Assembly: GCA_017448825.1 (NCBI GenBank)
Contig: JAFSKR010000043.1
Location: 1-64,000 of the forward strand
From: Bacteroidaceae bacterium
GTDB taxonomy: Bacteria; Bacteroidota; Bacteroidia; Bacteroidales; Bacteroidaceae
DNA length: 64,000 nt
Reading direction: 5' to 3'
The notes beneath the pieces are model-generated. The model saw nothing but the letters and a program-made list of their open reading frames with translations, was not told the DNA's origin and made no database searches. This document shows, piece by piece, positions 3,267 to 54,017 of this stretch (positions within the stretch are counted from its first letter, which is position 1; every line of letters starts with the position of its first letter). The position numbers were made by a program, and so were the translations under genes.

Positions 3267-4580
3267 TCAAAAGGCGATGCCACGGTAGAAGTTGAGGAGT
3301 TTCTGCCGGAAAAGGAAGGTGTAGCGCGACTGGATGGCAGTGCTCTCTGCTTTCTGTAGGGCAGTCTTCGACTCTTGGAACTCGGTGGCGGTGGCTTTCC
3401 CGTTTTCGTATTTCTTCTGCATCAGGTTGAAAGCTGTCTGGCTACTCTGCAGGGCGGCATCGCTGCTGATGCATTGCTTTTGGGCGGCGATGGCGTTGTA
3501 GTAGGCTTGCTGGATTTCCTTGTATAGTGTCTTTTTGGTCTCTTCGAGTTGCAGCTGCTGGTTGACCACCTGCAAACGTGCGGTGCGGACGTTGTTGCGG
3601 GTGGCGAAGCGGTTGAAGATGGGGATGGAGAGCGAGAGGCTGATGGATTGGTTGAAGTTATCCTCCATCTGCTTGCCGAAAGATGCTGCCTCAAAGCCCG
3701 ATGTCTTGTAGTAACTGCTGCCCAGCCCGCCCGAGAGATACACAGAGGGGTAGAATCCTGCTTGAGCAACCTTGACGTTTTTCTCGGCACTTTGTATGTT
3801 CAGCAGTCCCGACTGGATTTGGGGTTTGATGCCGAGAGCTTCGCTGTAGATGACGTCTGGCGTGGTGAGCAGGACGGTGGTGGGGTCGCTGGTTTCTGGA
3901 CGCTGAATGTCAAACTGTTCGGGCGAGGGAAGTTCGAGCAGTTGGGAGAGTTCAAGCAGAGCGAGCATGGCACTGTTCTGTTGTTGGGTGAGGGCGAGTT
4001 CGTCGGCTGCCACGTGTGATTGGGCTTCTGCCAGTTCGCTTTCAGAGACTTTGCCGTTTTTGAGCAGGAGGCCGATGCGTTGGACTTGGGCGGTACTCAG
4101 TTCCAGTTGCTGCTGTGCCACGCTGACGAGGTCTTTCTGATAGACGGCTTCGAGGTAGGCAGATACAACCTGCATACTGATGTTTTCCTTGGCACGGTCG
4201 AGGTCGGCAAGAGCGGCTTGCAGGTTGAGTTTGCTCATTTTGATTTGGTTGGGTATTTGACCACCTGTGATGAGGGGGACGCTGGTGCCGATGTTGAAGG
4301 AGGTGCTCTGCGTGTTGCGGTTGGCATAGGTGTTGTCCATTGTCAAGCCGCGTCCGAAGCCGAGGCTCTCACTGGCAGATGCTTCGAGGTTGGGCAAACG
4401 GGAGTTCTTGGCGGTGCTGAGAGCCACCTCTTGGTTCTTCACGTTCACTTCTTGCTGCTTGATGCTGATGTTGTGCTCAATGGCGTGGGCTATGCATTGT
4501 TGGAGACTCCACTGATTCGTCTGTGCTGTGATTGGAGAGACGAAGAGCACACATATCATATATATCAAAGAATGTTTCAT
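3267..4580 (-). CDS. TolC-family outer membrane efflux protein
   Basis: 437 residues with an N-terminal signal peptide ending near AQTNQ. Two long heptad-rich halves typical of outer membrane efflux channels follow, with the internal duplication visible as repeated Q/A/L-rich helices. It is the last gene of the leftward operon, directly after the periplasmic adaptor (6-nt gap) and the two MacB-like permeases. The inferred role is to form the outer membrane duct of that tripartite exporter. The substrate is unknown; envelope-active compounds or lipid and peptide cargo are usual for MacB-type systems. Confidence 0.9.
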   Translation of the reverse strand: MKHSLIYMICVLFVSPITAQTNQWSLQQCIAHAIEHNISIKQQEVNVKNQEVALSTAKNSRLPNLEASASESLGFGRGLTMDNTYANRNTQSTSFNIGTSVPLITGGQIPNQIKMSKLNLQAALADLDRAKENISMQVVSAYLEAVYQKDLVSVAQQQLELSTAQVQRIGLLLKNGKVSESELAEAQSHVAADELALTQQQNSAMLALLELSQLLELPSPEQFDIQRPETSDPTTVLLTTPDVIYSEALGIKPQIQSGLLNIQSAEKNVKVAQAGFYPSVYLSGGLGSSYYKTSGFEAASFGKQMEDNFNQSISLSLSIPIFNRFATRNNVRTARLQVVNQQLQLEETKKTLYKEIQQAYYNAIAAQKQCISSDAALQSSQTAFNLMQKKYENGKATATEFQESKTALQKAESTAIQSRYTFLFRQKLLNFYRGIAF

Positions 4581-7156: not shown

Positions 7157-8409
7157 CCTCTTAGTGCTTCTATGGGTTTCACTTTAGCTGCCTTGCGGGC
7201 AGGGAAGAATCCTGCCAGTGCGCCAGCAATAATAATTACGGCGGTCGCTTGAATGCAGGTGCCAATATCGACGGTGGGATCAACGAAGTATTTCTGTTGA
7301 AACACGCCCATGTCCATCGTCTGACTGCCCACAGTGGCATCCATATATTCGCAGAAGCCCACGCCGAGCAACATGCCGATGTAGCCGAAGATGGTGGTGA
7401 TAACGATGCTTTCCATCACGACCATGCTGATGATGTTGTGTGGCTTGGCACCGATTGCCTTACGGATGCCGAACTCGTGGGTGCGTTCCTTCACCGAGAT
7501 GAGCATGATATTGCTCACGCCCGTCACACCGCTGAGCAGGGTGAGCAATCCCAGCACCCAGAGAGCGGTGTGGAGGATGTTGCTTGCCTTGTTCATGTCG
7601 GCATTGCTGCTTGCGTTGTTCCATATCCAGAGGGCTGATTCGTCAGTAGGGTCAAAACTGTGCTTGTCTGCCATGACTTTTCGGTACTTTTCCTCGAAAG
7701 CTTCGTTTGCCTCTTCAGTGTCGAGGTTCTTGACCTTCAGGTTCAATGCCTCCACGAATTTCCCCTTGCCGTAGATGGTGCGCACGGTGGTGTAGGGAGC
7801 GTAGAACATGTTGTTTCTGTTCATCGCGTTGTCTTTGTAGATGCCTACAATGGTATAGGAGATGCCGTCTATGCGGACTTGGCGATGGATGGCATTTTCC
7901 CCCTTCTTGAAGAGGTCTTTGACGTGCAAGTCGCTGATGACTATGACCTTGCGGTGCTCGTCGATGTCGATTTTGTTGATGAAACGACCCTCTAAAAGTT
8001 TGGTGGCATCCATCTCCTGCATGGAGGGTTGTACGCCTTCGAGTGTGACACCGCTCAGATGGTTCTTTCCAACCGAGGCTGACGTGACTTTTTGGCTGCA
8101 TTGCCCAATGGCGCTCGTCACCTCGTTGATGAACGACTTTTCCGACACTTCCGCATCGCTCTCGTCCAGCCGGATGCTGCGCCCTTCCTTCATGCCTTCG
8201 AAGGGTTTGGAGGTGAAACCTGGGTAGATGTAGATGGCATCGAAGGCAAAGTCCTCGCTGTTCTGTTCGAAGGTGTGGATGATGCCGTTGCCAGCACCTT
8301 GCAGCACGATGAGCAGGAAGAGCCCACTTGCCACAGCAAAGCCTGTGGCGAGGGTGCGGAGGAGGTTGCGTCTGAGCGAGCCGATGATTTCTGTAATGTA
8401 GTCAATCAT
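7153..8409 (-). CDS. MacB-like ABC permease, first copy (FtsX fold)
   Basis: 418 residues with the same plan as its downstream neighbour: a first transmembrane helix near 17-40, a periplasmic domain to about 275 and an FtsX domain with the motif VKERTHEFGIRKAIGA before the second helix. The start overlaps the ATPase gene's stop (ATGA), and its own stop overlaps the next permease. The two permeases differ throughout, including the periplasmic domain, so they look like old paralogues forming a heterodimer. The inferred role is mechanotransmission of substrate from the periplasm to the TolC-like channel. Confidence 0.9.
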   Translation of the reverse strand: MIDYITEIIGSLRRNLLRTLATGFAVASGLFLLIVLQGAGNGIIHTFEQNSEDFAFDAIYIYPGFTSKPFEGMKEGRSIRLDESDAEVSEKSFINEVTSAIGQCSQKVTSASVGKNHLSGVTLEGVQPSMQEMDATKLLEGRFINKIDIDEHRKVIVISDLHVKDLFKKGENAIHRQVRIDGISYTIVGIYKDNAMNRNNMFYAPYTTVRTIYGKGKFVEALNLKVKNLDTEEANEAFEEKYRKVMADKHSFDPTDESALWIWNNASSNADMNKASNILHTALWVLGLLTLLSGVTGVSNIMLISVKERTHEFGIRKAIGAKPHNIISMVVMESIVITTIFGYIGMLLGVGFCEYMDATVGSQTMDMGVFQQKYFVDPTVDIGTCIQATAVIIIAGALAGFFPARKAAKVKPIEALRG

Positions 8410-11210: not shown

Positions 11211-11951
11211 TTATCCTCCTATTTCTGCTTTGGTTAATGTCTTGATGAAGAGTTCCTCCAGGTTGACGGGTTCTTCCATGTTCATTTTCTCGTTGAGCAG
11301 GACGGCGTTCTGCTCGATGATGGTCACGTGGTCGAGCAGTGTCTCCACGTCGCGCACCTGATGGGTGGAGATGATGACCGTCTGGTCGTCCCTCATGCCC
11401 TGTGCCACCACCTTGCGGAACTGGCTCTTGCTGGGGATGTCGAGGCCATTGGTCGGCTCGTCCATCAGCAGCAGTTTCGTGCGTGCAGCGATGGCGATGC
11501 ACATGTAAATCTTCTTTTTCTGCCCCATCGACAGCGCACCGAGGTTGATGTTCGGAAGACCATTCTCGTCGAGGGTGGCACCGTCGACATGGAGCATTTC
11601 GAAGACGGTGAGCAGTTGCACCATCAGTTGCTCGTCGAAGTTGGGGTAGAAGGGCTTGAGCACCTTCACATAGTCGGGCAGCAGGATGGAGGGCAGGTTG
11701 TACTCCTCGGGCACGATGAACATTTCCCTGAGTGTCTCGGGTTGGCGTTCTTGCGTGTTCATGCCGTCGAAGGTGATTTGACCCTGACGGGGACGGAGCA
11801 GTCCCATGATGAGGTAGAGCAGGGTGCTCTTGCCCGTGCCGTTCTTGCCCAAGAGGCCGTAGATGCCGGGTTCCTCGTACTGGAGCGAGAAGTTTTCCAG
11901 TACGTGGTGGATGGCGTTGTAGCCAAACGTTATGTTTTCAATCTTTAGCAT
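11211..11951 (-). CDS. ABC transporter ATP-binding protein, first gene of the nine-gene operon
   Basis: 246 residues. Walker A GLLGKNGTGKST (about 33-44), a signature region LSMGQKKK, where the usual LSGGQ has Met in place of the first Gly, and Walker B LLLMDEPTNGLD. The subfamily is that of ABC-2 type and bacitracin-resistance-like ATPases. It opens the operon; its start lies about 200 nt downstream of the promoter, and that leader contains three 23-bp dyad repeats. It pairs with the permease encoded next. Confidence 0.9.
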   Translation of the reverse strand: MLKIENITFGYNAIHHVLENFSLQYEEPGIYGLLGKNGTGKSTLLYLIMGLLRPRQGQITFDGMNTQERQPETLREMFIVPEEYNLPSILLPDYVKVLKPFYPNFDEQLMVQLLTVFEMLHVDGATLDENGLPNINLGALSMGQKKKIYMCIAIAARTKLLLMDEPTNGLDIPSKSQFRKVVAQGMRDDQTVIISTHQVRDVETLLDHVTIIEQNAVLLNEKMNMEEPVNLEELFIKTLTKAEIGG

Positions 11952-12005
11952 AGTGTTTTTATTTATATATAATGTGTATGTTTATAATTGCTTGCTCATG
12001 ACCTC

Positions 12006-12078
12006 AAAACCGACGTGGGGCACGCCGCCTTACCGATGTGGGGCACGTCGCCTCACCGATGTGGGGCACGTCGGTTTT
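12006..12078. repeat. Three tandem 23-bp dyad units (family A) in the operon leader
   Basis: Units at 12009-12031, 12032-12054 and 12055-12077 are each exactly 23 bp, of the form ACCGAYGTGGGGCACGYCG. Each is a near-palindrome with a GGG centre. The array is bounded by a perfect 12-bp inverted repeat, AAAACCGACGTG (12006-12017) and CACGTCGGTTTT (12067-12078). The same unit, also three times with the same 23-bp period, occurs at 28744-28812. It lies in the predicted 5' leader of the ABC operon. Confidence 0.85.
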
Positions 12079-12133
12079 GTGGTTGTTTCCGTGTCACCTT
12101 GGCGATGTTTCCGACTCCATTCTTTATGTTATT

Positions 12134-12166
12134 AGTGTACTACTTAAGTAATACACTGCAAAGGTA
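12134..12166 (-). promoter_or_regulatory. Promoter and YtrA-like operator of the nine-gene ABC operon
   Basis: The -7 box TACCTTTG is read leftward at 12159-12166. Directly downstream, over the expected start site, AGTGTACTACTT (12134-12145) and AAGTAATACACT (12146-12157) form a 24-bp palindrome with one mismatched pair. AGTGTA/TACACT ends resemble operators described for YtrA-type GntR repressors. The placement fits repression by the GntR protein encoded third in this operon (autoregulation). Confidence 0.75.
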
Positions 12167-12254
12167 GTGCATTTCATCCCGAACTTCCAAACAAATGATG
12201 AAAAAAGTTTCATTATTTAACATTCTTTTAACATTGCGTGTCGGAAAAAGTTTG

Positions 12255-12262
12255 TACCTTTG
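12255..12262 (+). promoter_or_regulatory. -7 box for the NIF3 gene
   Basis: TACCTTTG with ATTG 18 bases upstream. The predicted leader before the start codon is about 55 nt. It diverges from the ABC operon promoter at 12159-12166. Confidence 0.65.
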
Positions 12263-12322
12263 CAGCCGAAACGTGTGGAGAGGCAGATTGGCATAAATTG
12301 AAACAACCACGTTTCCGACATC

Positions 12323-13126
12323 ATGAAAGTAAAGGATATCTTAGGTGCCCTTGAAGAGTTCGCTCCTCTGGCCCTGCAAGACGGCTACGATAATGCGGGA
12401 TTGCAGATTGGATTAGCAGAGGACGCAGAGGCTACAGGGGCATTGTTGTGTTTGGACGTCAATGAAGACGTCGTGGATGAGGCGGTTCAGCGCGGCTGCA
12501 ACCTCATCGTGAGTCATCACCCCCTGTTGTTCCATCCCGTGAAGAGCATCACGTCGCAGGACTATGTGGGTCGTACCATCATGCGTGCCATCCAGAAGGG
12601 CGTTGCTATCTATGCCGCCCACACTAACCTGGATGCTGCCTATGACGGTGTGTGTTTCAAAATGGCAGACAAGCTGGGTCTTGCCGCTCCACAGTGGCTC
12701 TCTCCGACAGAGTCTTATGTGCGTGACGGACAGGAGTGCATGGCAGGCGATGGCATCATTGCCACCTTCCCGACACCACTCTCCCAGAAGGCATTCATGG
12801 AGCGCGTGAAAGAGGTCTTCCATCTGAAGTCCCTGCGTGCCAATAATGCTGACAAGGAGAAAATCAGCCGTGTGGCACTGTGTGGCGGTTCGGGTGCCTT
12901 CCTGATACCCGATGCCATCGAGAAAGGTGCCGATGCCTTCTTGACGGGCGAGATTGGTTACCACCACTTCTTCGGCCATGAGCAAGACATCCTGCTCCTG
13001 GAGGTGGGACACTACGAGAGTGAGCAATACACCTTGGAGATTCTGAGAGACATTCTCCACAAGGCCGACGAGCAACTGCCCATCTACGAGACAGAGAAGA
13101 AGGTAAATCCTATCAACTATTTATAA
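12323..13126 (+). CDS. NIF3-like dinuclear metal-centre protein (YbgI/GTP cyclohydrolase-I type 2 family)
   Basis: 267 residues. Family metal-binding histidines appear in IVSHHPLLFHP (about 62-72) and GEIGYHHFFGHE (about 209-220), and YAAHTNLDAAYDGV (about 96-109) is the conserved central block. NIF3 proteins form toroidal hexamers with a two-metal site; their reaction is still poorly defined. The gene is followed 6 nt later by a coiled-coil zinc-ribbon gene, a pairing common in Bacteroidetes. The length matches the short form without the inserted PII-like domain. Confidence 0.92.
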   Translation: MKVKDILGALEEFAPLALQDGYDNAGLQIGLAEDAEATGALLCLDVNEDVVDEAVQRGCNLIVSHHPLLFHPVKSITSQDYVGRTIMRAIQKGVAIYAAHTNLDAAYDGVCFKMADKLGLAAPQWLSPTESYVRDGQECMAGDGIIATFPTPLSQKAFMERVKEVFHLKSLRANNADKEKISRVALCGGSGAFLIPDAIEKGADAFLTGEIGYHHFFGHEQDILLLEVGHYESEQYTLEILRDILHKADEQLPIYETEKKVNPINYL

Positions 13127-28363: not shown

Positions 28364-29422
28364 ATGAAACTCCCCAGCATCTTTAATTGTTCCAACGATA
28401 TGGCATTGGCTGCCCATGTGTGCCAGTATCAGCCTCCCAAGCGCATCCAGCAGATGGAGGCGGATTTGGCGTTGCTGGCACGGGTGTGGGAGGACACGCG
28501 GTTTGCCGGGCCGTGGGGATGGAGCTTGGCGACGAGACAGCGGTACAGGCAGATGGGGGTGGCTGTCGAGGCGTTGCCGTCGGATGACTGGCTGGAAGAG
28601 GTGAGAAGGCTTTCCTCAAGGGAATTTGCGTGTGGATATGTGAAAGGGTTGTTGGTGAAGCTCAATGACCCAAGACTCGTAGGGGAAGAGATGCGATGGG
28701 TTGACCGACAATGCTTCTCATGGGATGTGCTCGCAACCCCTGAACCGACGTGGGGCACATCGGTCAACCGACGTGGGGCACGTCGGTCAACCGACGTGGG
28801 GCACGTCGGTTTGGGGGTGGTGAGAGCACCTCATGCGAGGATATTCAAGTCCCCCTGGTCATCCTCTGGGCGTGGGGTGTTTGTGTCTGACGCGCTTGAC
28901 GAACATACGCAGAAACGTTTGCAGGGTTTTCTCTCTTCGCAGGGCGGCTTCGTGGTGGACAGGTTCTACGAGGATAAGGTGCTGGATTTTGCGATGGAGT
29001 TTTTCGTTCATGAAGACCATCAGGTGGAGTTCTTGGGTTATTCCGTGTTTGAGACAGGCGAACACGGAGCGTATGGCTATAATTACGTGGAGAGTCAGGA
29101 GGAGTTGTTGGAGCGTATTGAGGACGGGGATGAAGGGGTGAATGGGGTGGATAGGGGGCTTCTTGAACGTCTGCTTGCTTATCATCAGGAGCATCTCGGT
29201 CAAACTGCCTATCATGGTCCTGTGGGCATAGATATGCTGAAGACTTCCGGCAGCATCCACCCTTGCCTCGAAATCAATTTCCGCATGAACATGGGCATCC
29301 TCGCTCTGTTGCTGCACGAGCGGTATGGCGCTCATGCCACAGTGGCTCTCACTCCCGAACGGGAGCATGGTTTTCAGGCTCTGGTGGATGACGGACGACT
29401 GATGATTACGTTTCGTCCTTGA
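28364..29422 (+). CDS. ATP-grasp-like protein interrupted by an in-frame 69-bp repeat array
   Basis: 352 residues from MKLPSIFNCSND; the next Met is 12 codons on. The C-terminal half has ATP-grasp hallmarks: KSPWSSSGRGVF (phosphate-binding Lys and Gly-rich loop, about 165-176) and CLEINFRMNMG (Mg-binding Glu/Asn, about 311-321). The substrate is unknown; relatives join carboxylates to amines. Between the N-terminal region and the Lys loop, codons from 28744-28812 encode three 23-bp repeat units (PTWGTS... and TDVGHVG), which are foreign to the fold. The 69-nt insert keeps the frame, so the protein is probably still made. There is no operon partner. Confidence 0.75.
   Translation: MKLPSIFNCSNDMALAAHVCQYQPPKRIQQMEADLALLARVWEDTRFAGPWGWSLATRQRYRQMGVAVEALPSDDWLEEVRRLSSREFACGYVKGLLVKLNDPRLVGEEMRWVDRQCFSWDVLATPEPTWGTSVNRRGARRSTDVGHVGLGVVRAPHARIFKSPWSSSGRGVFVSDALDEHTQKRLQGFLSSQGGFVVDRFYEDKVLDFAMEFFVHEDHQVEFLGYSVFETGEHGAYGYNYVESQEELLERIEDGDEGVNGVDRGLLERLLAYHQEHLGQTAYHGPVGIDMLKTSGSIHPCLEINFRMNMGILALLLHERYGAHATVALTPEREHGFQALVDDGRLMITFRP
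28744..28812. repeat. Three tandem 23-bp dyad units (family A) inside a CDS
   Basis: Units at 28744-28766, 28767-28789 and 28790-28812 read ACCGACGTGGGGCACRTCGG plus TCA or TTT. Each is a palindrome with 8-bp arms around GGG. It is the same family as 12009-12077, again exactly three units of exactly 23 bp, and the last unit again ends CGGTTT. The total of 69 bp equals 23 codons. Confidence 0.9.
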
Positions 29423-43927: not shown

Positions 43928-44038
43928 AAAATAAAGTGAAGAGTGAAAAGTGAAAAATTTGCTGCCGCAGCAGTAAGCCAACAAGAATGACTAACAAGTG
44001 CGGTAGCAAATTTTTCACTTTTCACTTTATTTTTTCAC
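43928..44038. repeat. Long inverted repeat with TTTGCTRCCGCA core, shared terminator
   Basis: The left arm (about 43928-43969) contains AGTGAAAAATTTGCTGCCGCA, and the right arm (about 43999-44038) its complement TGCGGTAGCAAATTTTTCACT. The stem is about 38 bp with one 7-nt bulge and a loop of about 30 nt. It ends nadC and the convergent HU-like gene. The same core occurs at 55188-55289. Confidence 0.75.
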
Positions 44039-44439
44039 TCTTCTTCATCCAGCATCTCCACATCCTCAAACTCCATCTTTTTCAGCGTTTCTTGAAATTC
44101 CTTGTGGGGATAAAAACGCACTTTCACGGAGTGTATGCACTTGGCACTGAGTTGTTCAGCCGATTCGGCACTTGTTGCATTAAAAACAGGTCTCAACGTG
44201 CCAATGCCGCCAATCTGTACGCTGTGTCCCAAACTCAAATAGTGCCGCAATCGGTCAGACATGGCACAGGCAATGCCTTTCACTTGTGCTTGTGCCACGC
44301 CTTGCGACATCATGCACTCTTTCACAAAATCCTCGAATGATACAGGCGTAGGGCACACCTGTTGCATCAGCCATGCCTCATGGGTCGTGTGGTCGGGGTT
44401 GATGACTTGTCTCTTCACTTTACGGTAAGCGATACTCAT
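44035..44439 (-). CDS. HU-family DNA-binding-like protein
   Basis: 134 residues. It resembles the Bacteroidetes HU-related group: an N-terminal MSIAYRKVKRQVINPDH, the helical VSFEDFVKECMMSQGVAQAQVKGIACAMSDRL, then a beta segment GHSVQIGGIGTLRPVFNA (GxGxxR/P-like turn), ending in an acidic tail EFEDVEMLDEEE. It is probably a nucleoid-associated protein, possibly with a modified DNA-binding arm. It is monocistronic, with the promoter at 44519-44526. Confidence 0.75.
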   Translation of the reverse strand: MSIAYRKVKRQVINPDHTTHEAWLMQQVCPTPVSFEDFVKECMMSQGVAQAQVKGIACAMSDRLRHYLSLGHSVQIGGIGTLRPVFNATSAESAEQLSAKCIHSVKVRFYPHKEFQETLKKMEFEDVEMLDEEE

Positions 44440-44634: not shown

Positions 44635-44703
44635 CGTACCCCTCGGGTTCGCCGTGCCGTACCCGAGGGGTACACCACAGCGTACCCGAGGGGTACGGTT
44701 TTG
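44635..44703. repeat. Three tandem 23-bp dyad units (family B)
   Basis: Units at 44635-44657, 44658-44680 and 44681-44703 are each exactly 23 bp. Units two and three carry the palindrome CGTACCC-GAG-GGGTACG fully or in part. Unit one has the centre inverted (ACCC-CTC-GGGT). The sequence is unrelated to family A but has the same period, copy number and trailing GGTTTTG. It lies in the 3' region of the 726-residue exported protein gene. Confidence 0.85.
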
Positions 44704-53924: not shown

Positions 53925-54017
53925 ACCCCCAAAGGGGAGTGAGTCATACCCCCAAAAGGGGAGTGAGTCACACCTCTAAAGGGGAGTGAGTCACACCCCT
54001 TTTGGGGGTATGGGCGA
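53925..54017. repeat. Tandem 23-bp dyad units (family C), three direct and one inverted
   Basis: Units at 53925-53947 (23), 53948-53971 (24), 53972-53994 (23) and 53995-54017 read ACCCCCAAAGGGGAGTGAGT in the direct copies. The fourth has the core inverted (CACCCCTTTTGGGGGT). ATACCCCC near 53923 and GGGGGTAT near 54004 close the array as an inverted repeat. It lies just 3' of the receptor gene. Confidence 0.85.

Follow-up and report, generated by a model that had tools for sequence, protein, structure and literature searches.

The window analysed here, a stretch of 64,000 nucleotides, starts at the beginning of contig 32 of its source genome (G000; 2.95 Mb in 75 contigs, 86% complete). It contains four arrays of short palindromes (dyads) that repeat with a period of 23 bp (Table 1). 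All four had been pointed out in the first-pass annotation and all are confirmed: Tandem Repeats Finder (TRF) returns period 23 for three of them (12009–12073, 28743–28810 and 53925–53999), and the family B array was recognised by eye and by BLAST, with matches (as coordinates only) at the corresponding place in G019, G062, G025, G035, G017 and G034. The array starting at 28743 is located inside a protein-coding frame, which corrects the annotation. This frame has no Pfam match at E ≤ 0.1, and at the array point its orthologs in relatives have no insert, an array that differs or some other repeat. The family C array had been described as three units plus one inverted unit; it parses instead as three GTGASTCAC-centred units with spacings of 24 and 23. 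Around this dyad, three units are present in nine of 13 distinct places, with one place each having one, two, five and six.

Table 1. Coordinates of the four arrays, their frames and neighbouring genes in the window.
Feature	Position	Strand	Details
ABC-transporter ATPase gene	11211–11951	-	One side of site 1; context, outside the element
Left frame CCTCAAAAC of the 12011 array	12002–12010	.	
Family A array	12011–12073	.	Three 17 bp dyads (12011–12027, 12034–12050, 12057–12073); 23 bp period; core GGGGC in all three
Right frame GTTTTGTGGT of the 12011 array	12074–12083	.	
NIF3-like gene	12323–13126	+	Other side of site 1; context, outside the element
Protein-coding frame holding the 28746 array	28364–29422	+	Weak NCBIfam match LdmS, E = 0.0034
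Left frame AACCCCTGAAC of the 28746 array	28735–28745	.	
Family A array	28746–28808	.	Dyads 28746–28762, 28769–28785, 28792–28808; core GGGGC in all three; in frame in ORF 28364–29422
Right frame GTTTGGGGGT of the 28746 array	28809–28818	.	
Family B array	44635–44697	.	Dyads 44635–44651, 44658–44674, 44681–44697; 23 bp period
Family C array	53925–54017	.	Three GTGASTCAC-centred dyads; GAGTC at 53941, 53965 and 53988; CCCCCAAAGGGG before, CCCCTTTTGGGG after

At gathering level, the Rfam matches in the window are one tRNA and three CRISPR repeats only, with none at the arrays; the three repeats are of the CRISPR-DR49 type and lie at 55–255. A separate dispersed repeat of ∼110 bp with 7 bp units, which has very many matches across the genus, occupies 43933–44045. 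The family B array stands in front of an HU-family gene (44035–44439, minus strand; HU-HIG, E = 2.2e-22). Elsewhere, A-type arrays are found ∼110 bp upstream of an HU-like paralog (L009, contig C13 of the source genome) and ∼390 bp upstream of an HU-family gene (L123, UBA4359). Dyad arrays were seen in front of genes for HU-family DNA-binding proteins in at least three contexts.

The elements are dispersed, ∼100 bp in length, and consist of three tandem imperfect palindromes on a 23 bp ruler inside an inverted outer frame. The A-type unit is composed of a 6 nt arm, a 5 nt core, a second 6 nt arm and a 6 nt link (CGAYRT, the five-base core, AYRTCG and then six linking bases), where the core is GCCCC, CCCCG or CGACG or one of their complements, with CCCGG as a variant. 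Three units are the normal size and correspond to 69 bp, or 23 codons. The same geometry is seen with the arm families CGACCA, CGTACC/CGCACC, GTGASTCAC and TGTAACA. In 113 of 115 three-unit arrays the cores are oriented all one way or with one end unit inverted, and the middle unit alone is inverted in just two. Independent flipping of single units is thereby rejected; the orientation patterns look inherited.

Outside the units, family A has the inverted frame consensus CTTCCACAgCCTCTAAAC ... GTTTAGAGGcTGTGGAAG, and the flank consensus adjoining the first unit is CTAAAC/GTTTAG (119 A arrays). The families had been taken to be unrelated in sequence, which does not hold for A and C: the inner frame CCYC...GRGG is common to both. 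With the left part taken as CCTC or CCCC and the right part as GAGG or GGGG, each within 14 nt, both inner parts are present in 78 of 119 A arrays and in ten of 11 C arrays (two C arrays with under three units being left out), compared with 16 of 2640 positions chosen at random. Neither the CCYC nor the GRGG part is present in the family B array of the window. Folded as single-stranded DNA, six elements score between z = −3.6 and z = −8.4 relative to shuffled sequences; element L003 forms three separate hairpins on an outer stem, while most other folded elements form one long hairpin.

The significance of the 3 × 23 geometry was assessed using a sequence-independent scan for three equally spaced dyads (at least seven of nine pairs; spacings 12–44) covering 864 kb from seven genomes of the same genus, namely 464 kb of the source genome and 400 kb of six relatives. 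With overlapping matches of one array counted separately, the scan gives 15 matches at spacing 23 (source genome 7, G019 2, G012 3, G034 2, G003 1, G062 0 and G026 0) versus three at all other spacings, all in G012, and no equal-spacing triples in one block-shuffled copy of each sequence set. The seven matches in the source genome correspond to five distinct arrays, of which one contributes three matches, and the other 32 spacings tried give no dyad triples in these 464 kb. The threshold is strict and detects just the 28746 array among the four in the window. Three units at a 23 bp period are more than coincidence.

TRF provides a similar picture. The 464 kb of the source genome contain 21 non-overlapping arrays of period 23, compared with eight of period 21 and one each of periods 22 and 24, and 80 kb of G019 contain eight of period 23. 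This peak is present in array-bearing genomes, the samples compared between genomes being small; arrays of this period were not found in the samples from G026 (120 kb), G007 (40 kb) and G024 (20 kb). In 188 kb from 12 genomes of other genera there are three such arrays, two of them ∼1.4 kb apart in one genome. In G054, which belongs to another family of the order, three- and four-unit 23 bp arrays (8231–8300 and 9647–9740 of L400) flank a DUF4143/AAA ATPase gene. Many period-23 arrays of the source genome have no clear palindrome, unrelated sequences and ∼2–6 units (for example C60:77037–77116, C60:99599–99813, C59:4594–4736, C59:105995–106136 and C74:75453–75563), and a general 23 bp repeat process may operate beside the dyad elements.

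The many loci anticipated in the annotation are also found, and the copy number is near-constant. A family A search of the source genome yielded 24 distinct arrays that were read, of which 17 have three units, four have four, two have two (one of these cut by a contig end) and one has six, a few weaker places being left out. Over all loci, 115 of 132 distinct A-type arrays have three units, ten have two, four have four and three have six; this count requires at least two units, many arrays having been fetched by a two-unit pattern, and leaves single units uncounted. One six-unit array (L190) is a tandem 3 + 3 of two core types in one 23 bp register. The pattern-based counts refer to type A only and to draft genomes. 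Frames of at least 250 codons contain 21 of 101 arrays, compared with 328 of 555 randomly chosen positions.

A search of ∼85,000 species genomes with a degenerate family A pattern matched 100 stretches, all from assemblies titled Bacteroidaceae, Prevotellaceae, Bacteroidales or Prevotella. Where the source is named it is goat, roe deer or reindeer, with rumen or reticulum given for goat and roe deer. Among 45 genomes of the genus, the two-unit A pattern (at most two mismatches) is present in 20 and absent from 25, with 62 matches in the source genome and 0–92 elsewhere; the reversed pattern, used as a control, has no match in any of the 45. The A consensus of the source genome has no match in 24 sampled genomes of other genera. 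In these genomes of uncultured gut bacteria, the elements are spread over many contigs and are mainly extragenic, with some inside genes.

Orthologous sites show that the architecture is retained while the sequence changes. At site 1 (11951–12323 of the window, between the ABC ATPase and NIF3-like genes), six of 22 genomes contain an array: type A in the source genome, CGACCACGTCGTGGTCG in G019, CGYACCCGTCGGGTNCG in G034, four CGTAGTCGAGGGG-type units in G013, and three and two CGCACCCCTCGGGTCCG-type units in G035 and G017, respectively. The other 16 have no 23 bp repeat (lag-23 matches at most 22/44). At site 2 (window 28746, inside the coding frame), arrays are found in eight of 23 genomes, with A units in the source genome, GTCCCCGAY in G012, CGACCA in G019, CGTCG/CGACG-core units in G009 and G010, and CGTACCCGAGGGG-type units in G013, G017 and G035 (two units in the last). 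The other 15 show nothing or unrelated repeats by eye, with lag-23 scores of at most 22/44 except for G023, which scores 26/44 but has no dyads. Site 2 is empty in G036, a close relative of G012, relative to which the insert is ∼102 bp. Three 23 bp units are kept in four of six array-bearing genomes at site 1 and in seven of eight at site 2.

A third site is the glycerate kinase gene, where the array is in frame in 11 of 12 genomes read, with cores of GCCCC type in two, CCCCG in two and CGACG in seven; the gene of G002 is empty. Empty sites in relatives, a further expectation of the annotation, are thus present in the site 1, site 2 and glycerate kinase comparisons. Most genomes are dominated by one A-type core: GCCCC accounts for 73 of 74 units in the source genome, CCCCG for 76 of 80 in RGIG3223 and CGACG for 36 of 39 in RGIG4941 and 16 of 17 in RUG418, with RUG242 being mixed (15 GCCCC and five CGACG). 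Among 12 loci with three-unit arrays in at least two genomes and both flanks matching, the cores differ at seven. For instance, L146 (RUG418) and L205 (RGIG3223) have flanks that are 97–99% identical and units that differ in core type and number. At glycerate kinase the adjoining gene sequence bears signs of allele exchange, and the core differences at shared loci may in part reflect the exchange of whole alleles.

Small palindromic elements with some of these properties are known. In the available portions of the cited reports, REPINs are described as inverted doublets of REPs that carry a GTAG-type guide and adjoin their RAYT (PMC3116915, PMC6006769), and Escherichia coli genomes with a RAYT hold more REPINs (PMC8049555). 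As far as these portions go, the present elements are similar in being short, dispersed, mostly intergenic, non-autonomous hairpin elements with several sequence groups per genome, and in being more numerous in genomes with an enzyme, here of one subtype. They differ in that 115 of 132 arrays are triplets on a 23 bp ruler rather than inverted doublets, in that no GTAG/GTGG guide is seen 0–2 nt 5′ of the hairpin foot (in the flank consensus of 119 A arrays only), and in the ∼345-residue enzyme that scores under the family cut-off, the in-frame insertions in genes and the loops and arms that vary at orthologous sites. Having neither doublet nor guide, they are not filed as REPINs, yet they may work like one. 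Autonomous IS200/IS605 elements are different in another way: the present elements are ∼100 bp and contain no Y1 transposase within the unit.

The Bacteroidetes TnpA-REP subclasses 2.6 (with atypical repeats nearby) and 2.4 (with REPs) are described in the same partial source as having NHxH together with either YIHxNP or YIxNNP, at median lengths of 179 and 194 residues (PMC6006769). They come from the same phylum and are likewise HUH enzymes tied to secondary structures with copies elsewhere in the genome; by the motifs and lengths listed there, the protein considered here (DHLH, YLxxNP, ∼345 residues) is set apart. Rickettsia palindromic elements, according to the sections available, are ∼150 bp long, belong to several families and are often in frame in metabolic genes (PMC10969869). 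In-frame palindromic insertion in protein genes is shared with the arrays in glycerate kinase and in ORF 28364–29422, while three 23 bp dyads, a uniform geometry across families and core switching at shared sites differ from that description. In the open-licence literature, judged by title or the start of the abstract, no paper on three-unit 23 bp dyads in this group was found.

A classical RAYT as defined by Pfam PF01797 was considered and rejected: nothing is matched in the source genome at E ≤ 0.001, and the matches in 18 of 41 genomes of the genus do not follow array content. After this result, a diverged RAYT type was found by protein search. On contig C15 of the source genome, the glycerate kinase gene with its array is followed directly by a gene for a protein of 345 residues with HUH and YLxxNP motifs. 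This protein matches the NCBIfam model for REP-associated tyrosine transposases with E = 1.3e-13 and 51 bits, under the equivalog cut-off of 80, and Pfam Y1_Tnp marginally (E = 0.0088). The MPDHLH and W..YL..NPLRL motifs are kept across the 17 ORFs read. A single-sequence structure prediction had a mean pLDDT of 36 and was not used.

With homologs in 34 of the 41 genomes of the genus, the enzyme family taken together shows no correspondence with the arrays. This is different for the subtype of the source genome, defined as at least 74% identical to its protein over the whole length, a line that was drawn after the sequences had been seen and falls in a clear gap. Of the 15 genomes that are array-rich (≥5 A-type pair matches), 12 encode the subtype, in each case as read from the sequence; among the 26 others, a close protein is present in G006 only (65% identical; Fisher p = 6.8e-7 for 12 of 15 versus one of 26, without kinship correction). 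The next best homologs are at most 57% identical among those read, which do not cover every homolog of every genome, and relatives at the 57% level are found in array-rich and array-poor genomes alike. Two of the three array-rich genomes without it, G009 (L385) and G010 (L167), have a remnant of the subtype beside glycerate kinase, 77–80% identical over residues 239–344; the pieces correspond to residues 1–21 or 1–13 and 239–344 of the source protein, as if the gene had been lost after the arrays spread. The third, G032 (97% complete), has 63 pair matches but nothing that matches the query enzyme. A tree built from two proteins of 29 genomes shows scarcity of arrays together with absence or near-absence of the gene on several branches (G034; G008 and G015; G026).

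The subtype occurs once in each genome read. The array in the neighbouring glycerate kinase gene is ∼0.6–2 kb from the RAYT-like gene in most genomes read and may represent one ancestral event. Repeats of lag 22/23 in front of RAYT-like genes show no clear excess (3/27 versus a background of 17/407), and at the threshold used a triple-dyad array is absent from all 35 loci L346–L380, which extend up to 1.5 kb on each side of Y1/RAYT-like matches. In G013 (L384, C46:8500–15500) a TGTAACA...TGTTACA array on the 23 bp ruler, at ∼3950–4060 of the locus, lies directly before a stop-interrupted RAYT-like gene. The enzymes of the source genome and G019 are 98.6% identical, and the units of G019 at sites 1 and 2 have CGACCA arms; with near-identical enzymes and different units, the enzyme alone cannot dictate the unit sequence.

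The correspondence between subtype and arrays, the remnants in G009 and G010 and the coinciding tree branches together favour a RAYT-type mechanism acting on single-stranded hairpins. The 23 bp geometry, the three-unit copy number, the shared inner frame, the empty and alternative states of orthologous sites, the genome-specific cores and the folding as single-stranded DNA also count for this reading, as does a strand polarity: 79 of 113 triples show G·T wobbles or A·C mismatches, but not both, on a given strand. With moderate confidence, we interpret the arrays as REPIN-like non-autonomous elements that a RAYT-type HUH (Y1) transposase would copy in trans as single-strand DNA hairpins. The best candidate for this enzyme is the ∼345-residue protein beside glycerate kinase, which would catalyse the copying. 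It would recognise the fold of three hairpins, or the frame, and not a particular loop sequence, such that a new successful hairpin variant could spread within a genome with the architecture unchanged, and insertions within genes would survive as three units keep the reading frame. That the elements are mobilised, that this enzyme mobilises them and that it recognises fold over sequence are all inferred from these comparisons. No transposition event or target duplication was observed at the sites compared.

Alternatively, the hairpin arms and loops could be replaced genome-wide and in concert inside frames that persist, by an active and possibly HUH-driven templated rewriting in which `three hairpins, 23 bp apart' is recognised rather than a sequence. 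The arms and links of orthologous arrays with different cores have a similarity of 40.8/48 (25 pairs, which are not independent) versus 38.2 (sd 3.0) for unrelated arrays with different cores, and the right orientation scores above the flipped one in 20 of the 25. If the better orientation is taken, unrelated different-core arrays reach 40.1 (sd 2.5). Several of the pair counts share genomes and hence are not independent. These similarities are suggestive at best of core change in place over re-insertion, and we regard concerted rewriting as a tentative possibility.

It is unlikely that the elements are classical MITEs, with the frame CTTCCACAGCCTCTAAAC as a terminal inverted repeat cut by an IS DDE transposase and the three dyads as cargo. 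The frame is indeed an inverted repeat with an inner part common to families A and C, empty sites exist and the elements are dispersed over many contigs. However, left–right pairing in the frame is mostly 0.6–0.9 over the nine bases beside the array (0.3–0.5 at two of them) and mostly 0.3–0.5 beyond, and in some elements the flanks run on as more copies at 23 bp spacing. This gradual outward decay does not resemble a sharp terminal repeat. Moreover, palindromy is conserved across sequence families in the dyads as well as at the ends, which would not be required of cargo.

We are more doubtful still about a 23 bp minisatellite process, in which slippage or an enzyme with a 23 nt stagger copies any sequence, palindromes persist by repeatedly disturbing replication and a count of three is favoured since 3 × 23 preserves reading frames. 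The non-palindromic period-23 arrays common in the source genome, the period-23 peak in array-bearing genomes that is absent from the 120 kb of G026 and the 69 bp in frame in glycerate kinase would all agree with it. It leaves unexplained the shared frame, the dispersed near-identical families, the genome-specific cores and the fact that arrays outside long reading frames (80 of 101) likewise stop at three.

A functional structured site under selection, such as a terminator, an mRNA-stability element or a landing site for a nucleoid protein, with the arrays before HU-family genes being regulatory, is likewise improbable. The strong hairpins, the location of most arrays outside long reading frames and the three HU-like contexts speak for it. 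Among the 21 arrays within reading frames, the wobble strand coincides with the sense strand in 12 and with the opposite strand in seven, with two ties; with no clear sense-strand bias, function at the mRNA level is not an obvious driver and was rejected. Arrays are also found inside enzymes, and copy number varies widely within one genus (0 to 92 pair matches in 45 genomes).

Porphyromonas gingivalis belongs to Bacteroidales, the same order as the present genus. Its BrickBuilt elements have, in the part of the source available, 23 nt repeats in 1 to 22.8 copies at 19 places per genome, a unique leader and tail of up to ∼300 nt and IS5-type ends GAGACC... (PMC4596501). Membership of that MITE family is highly improbable: the elements are alike as dispersed 23 nt tandem repeats in the same order at a comparable number of places (19 versus 24 read here), but the copy number and ends were tested and do not fit, the present arrays having a near-constant three palindromic units in a short frame of other sequence, with no leader, tail or IS5-like ends.

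The earlier proposal of a mechanism that makes or recognises three units rather than one mobile sequence is partly supported. Its three-unit part is strengthened, as orthologous sites keep three 23 bp units in most array-bearing genomes while the sequence changes. `Rather than one mobile sequence' is wrong as worded, because the arrays are dispersed in the manner of mobile elements, families A and C have a common inner frame and the A cores are nearly uniform within most genomes. A better statement is that of a family of mobile-type three-hairpin elements in which the hairpin sequence turns over between species.

To our knowledge, how REP-like and RPE-like palindromic elements spread and persist in bacterial genomes is still unsettled. 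Here, within one genus and 45 genomes, a given site can be empty in one genome, filled in another and, in a third, filled with another sequence of the same geometry, and small mobile-type hairpin elements add 23-residue segments to an enzyme with the reading frame intact. Whether such elements are recognised by sequence or by fold becomes directly testable in this genus.
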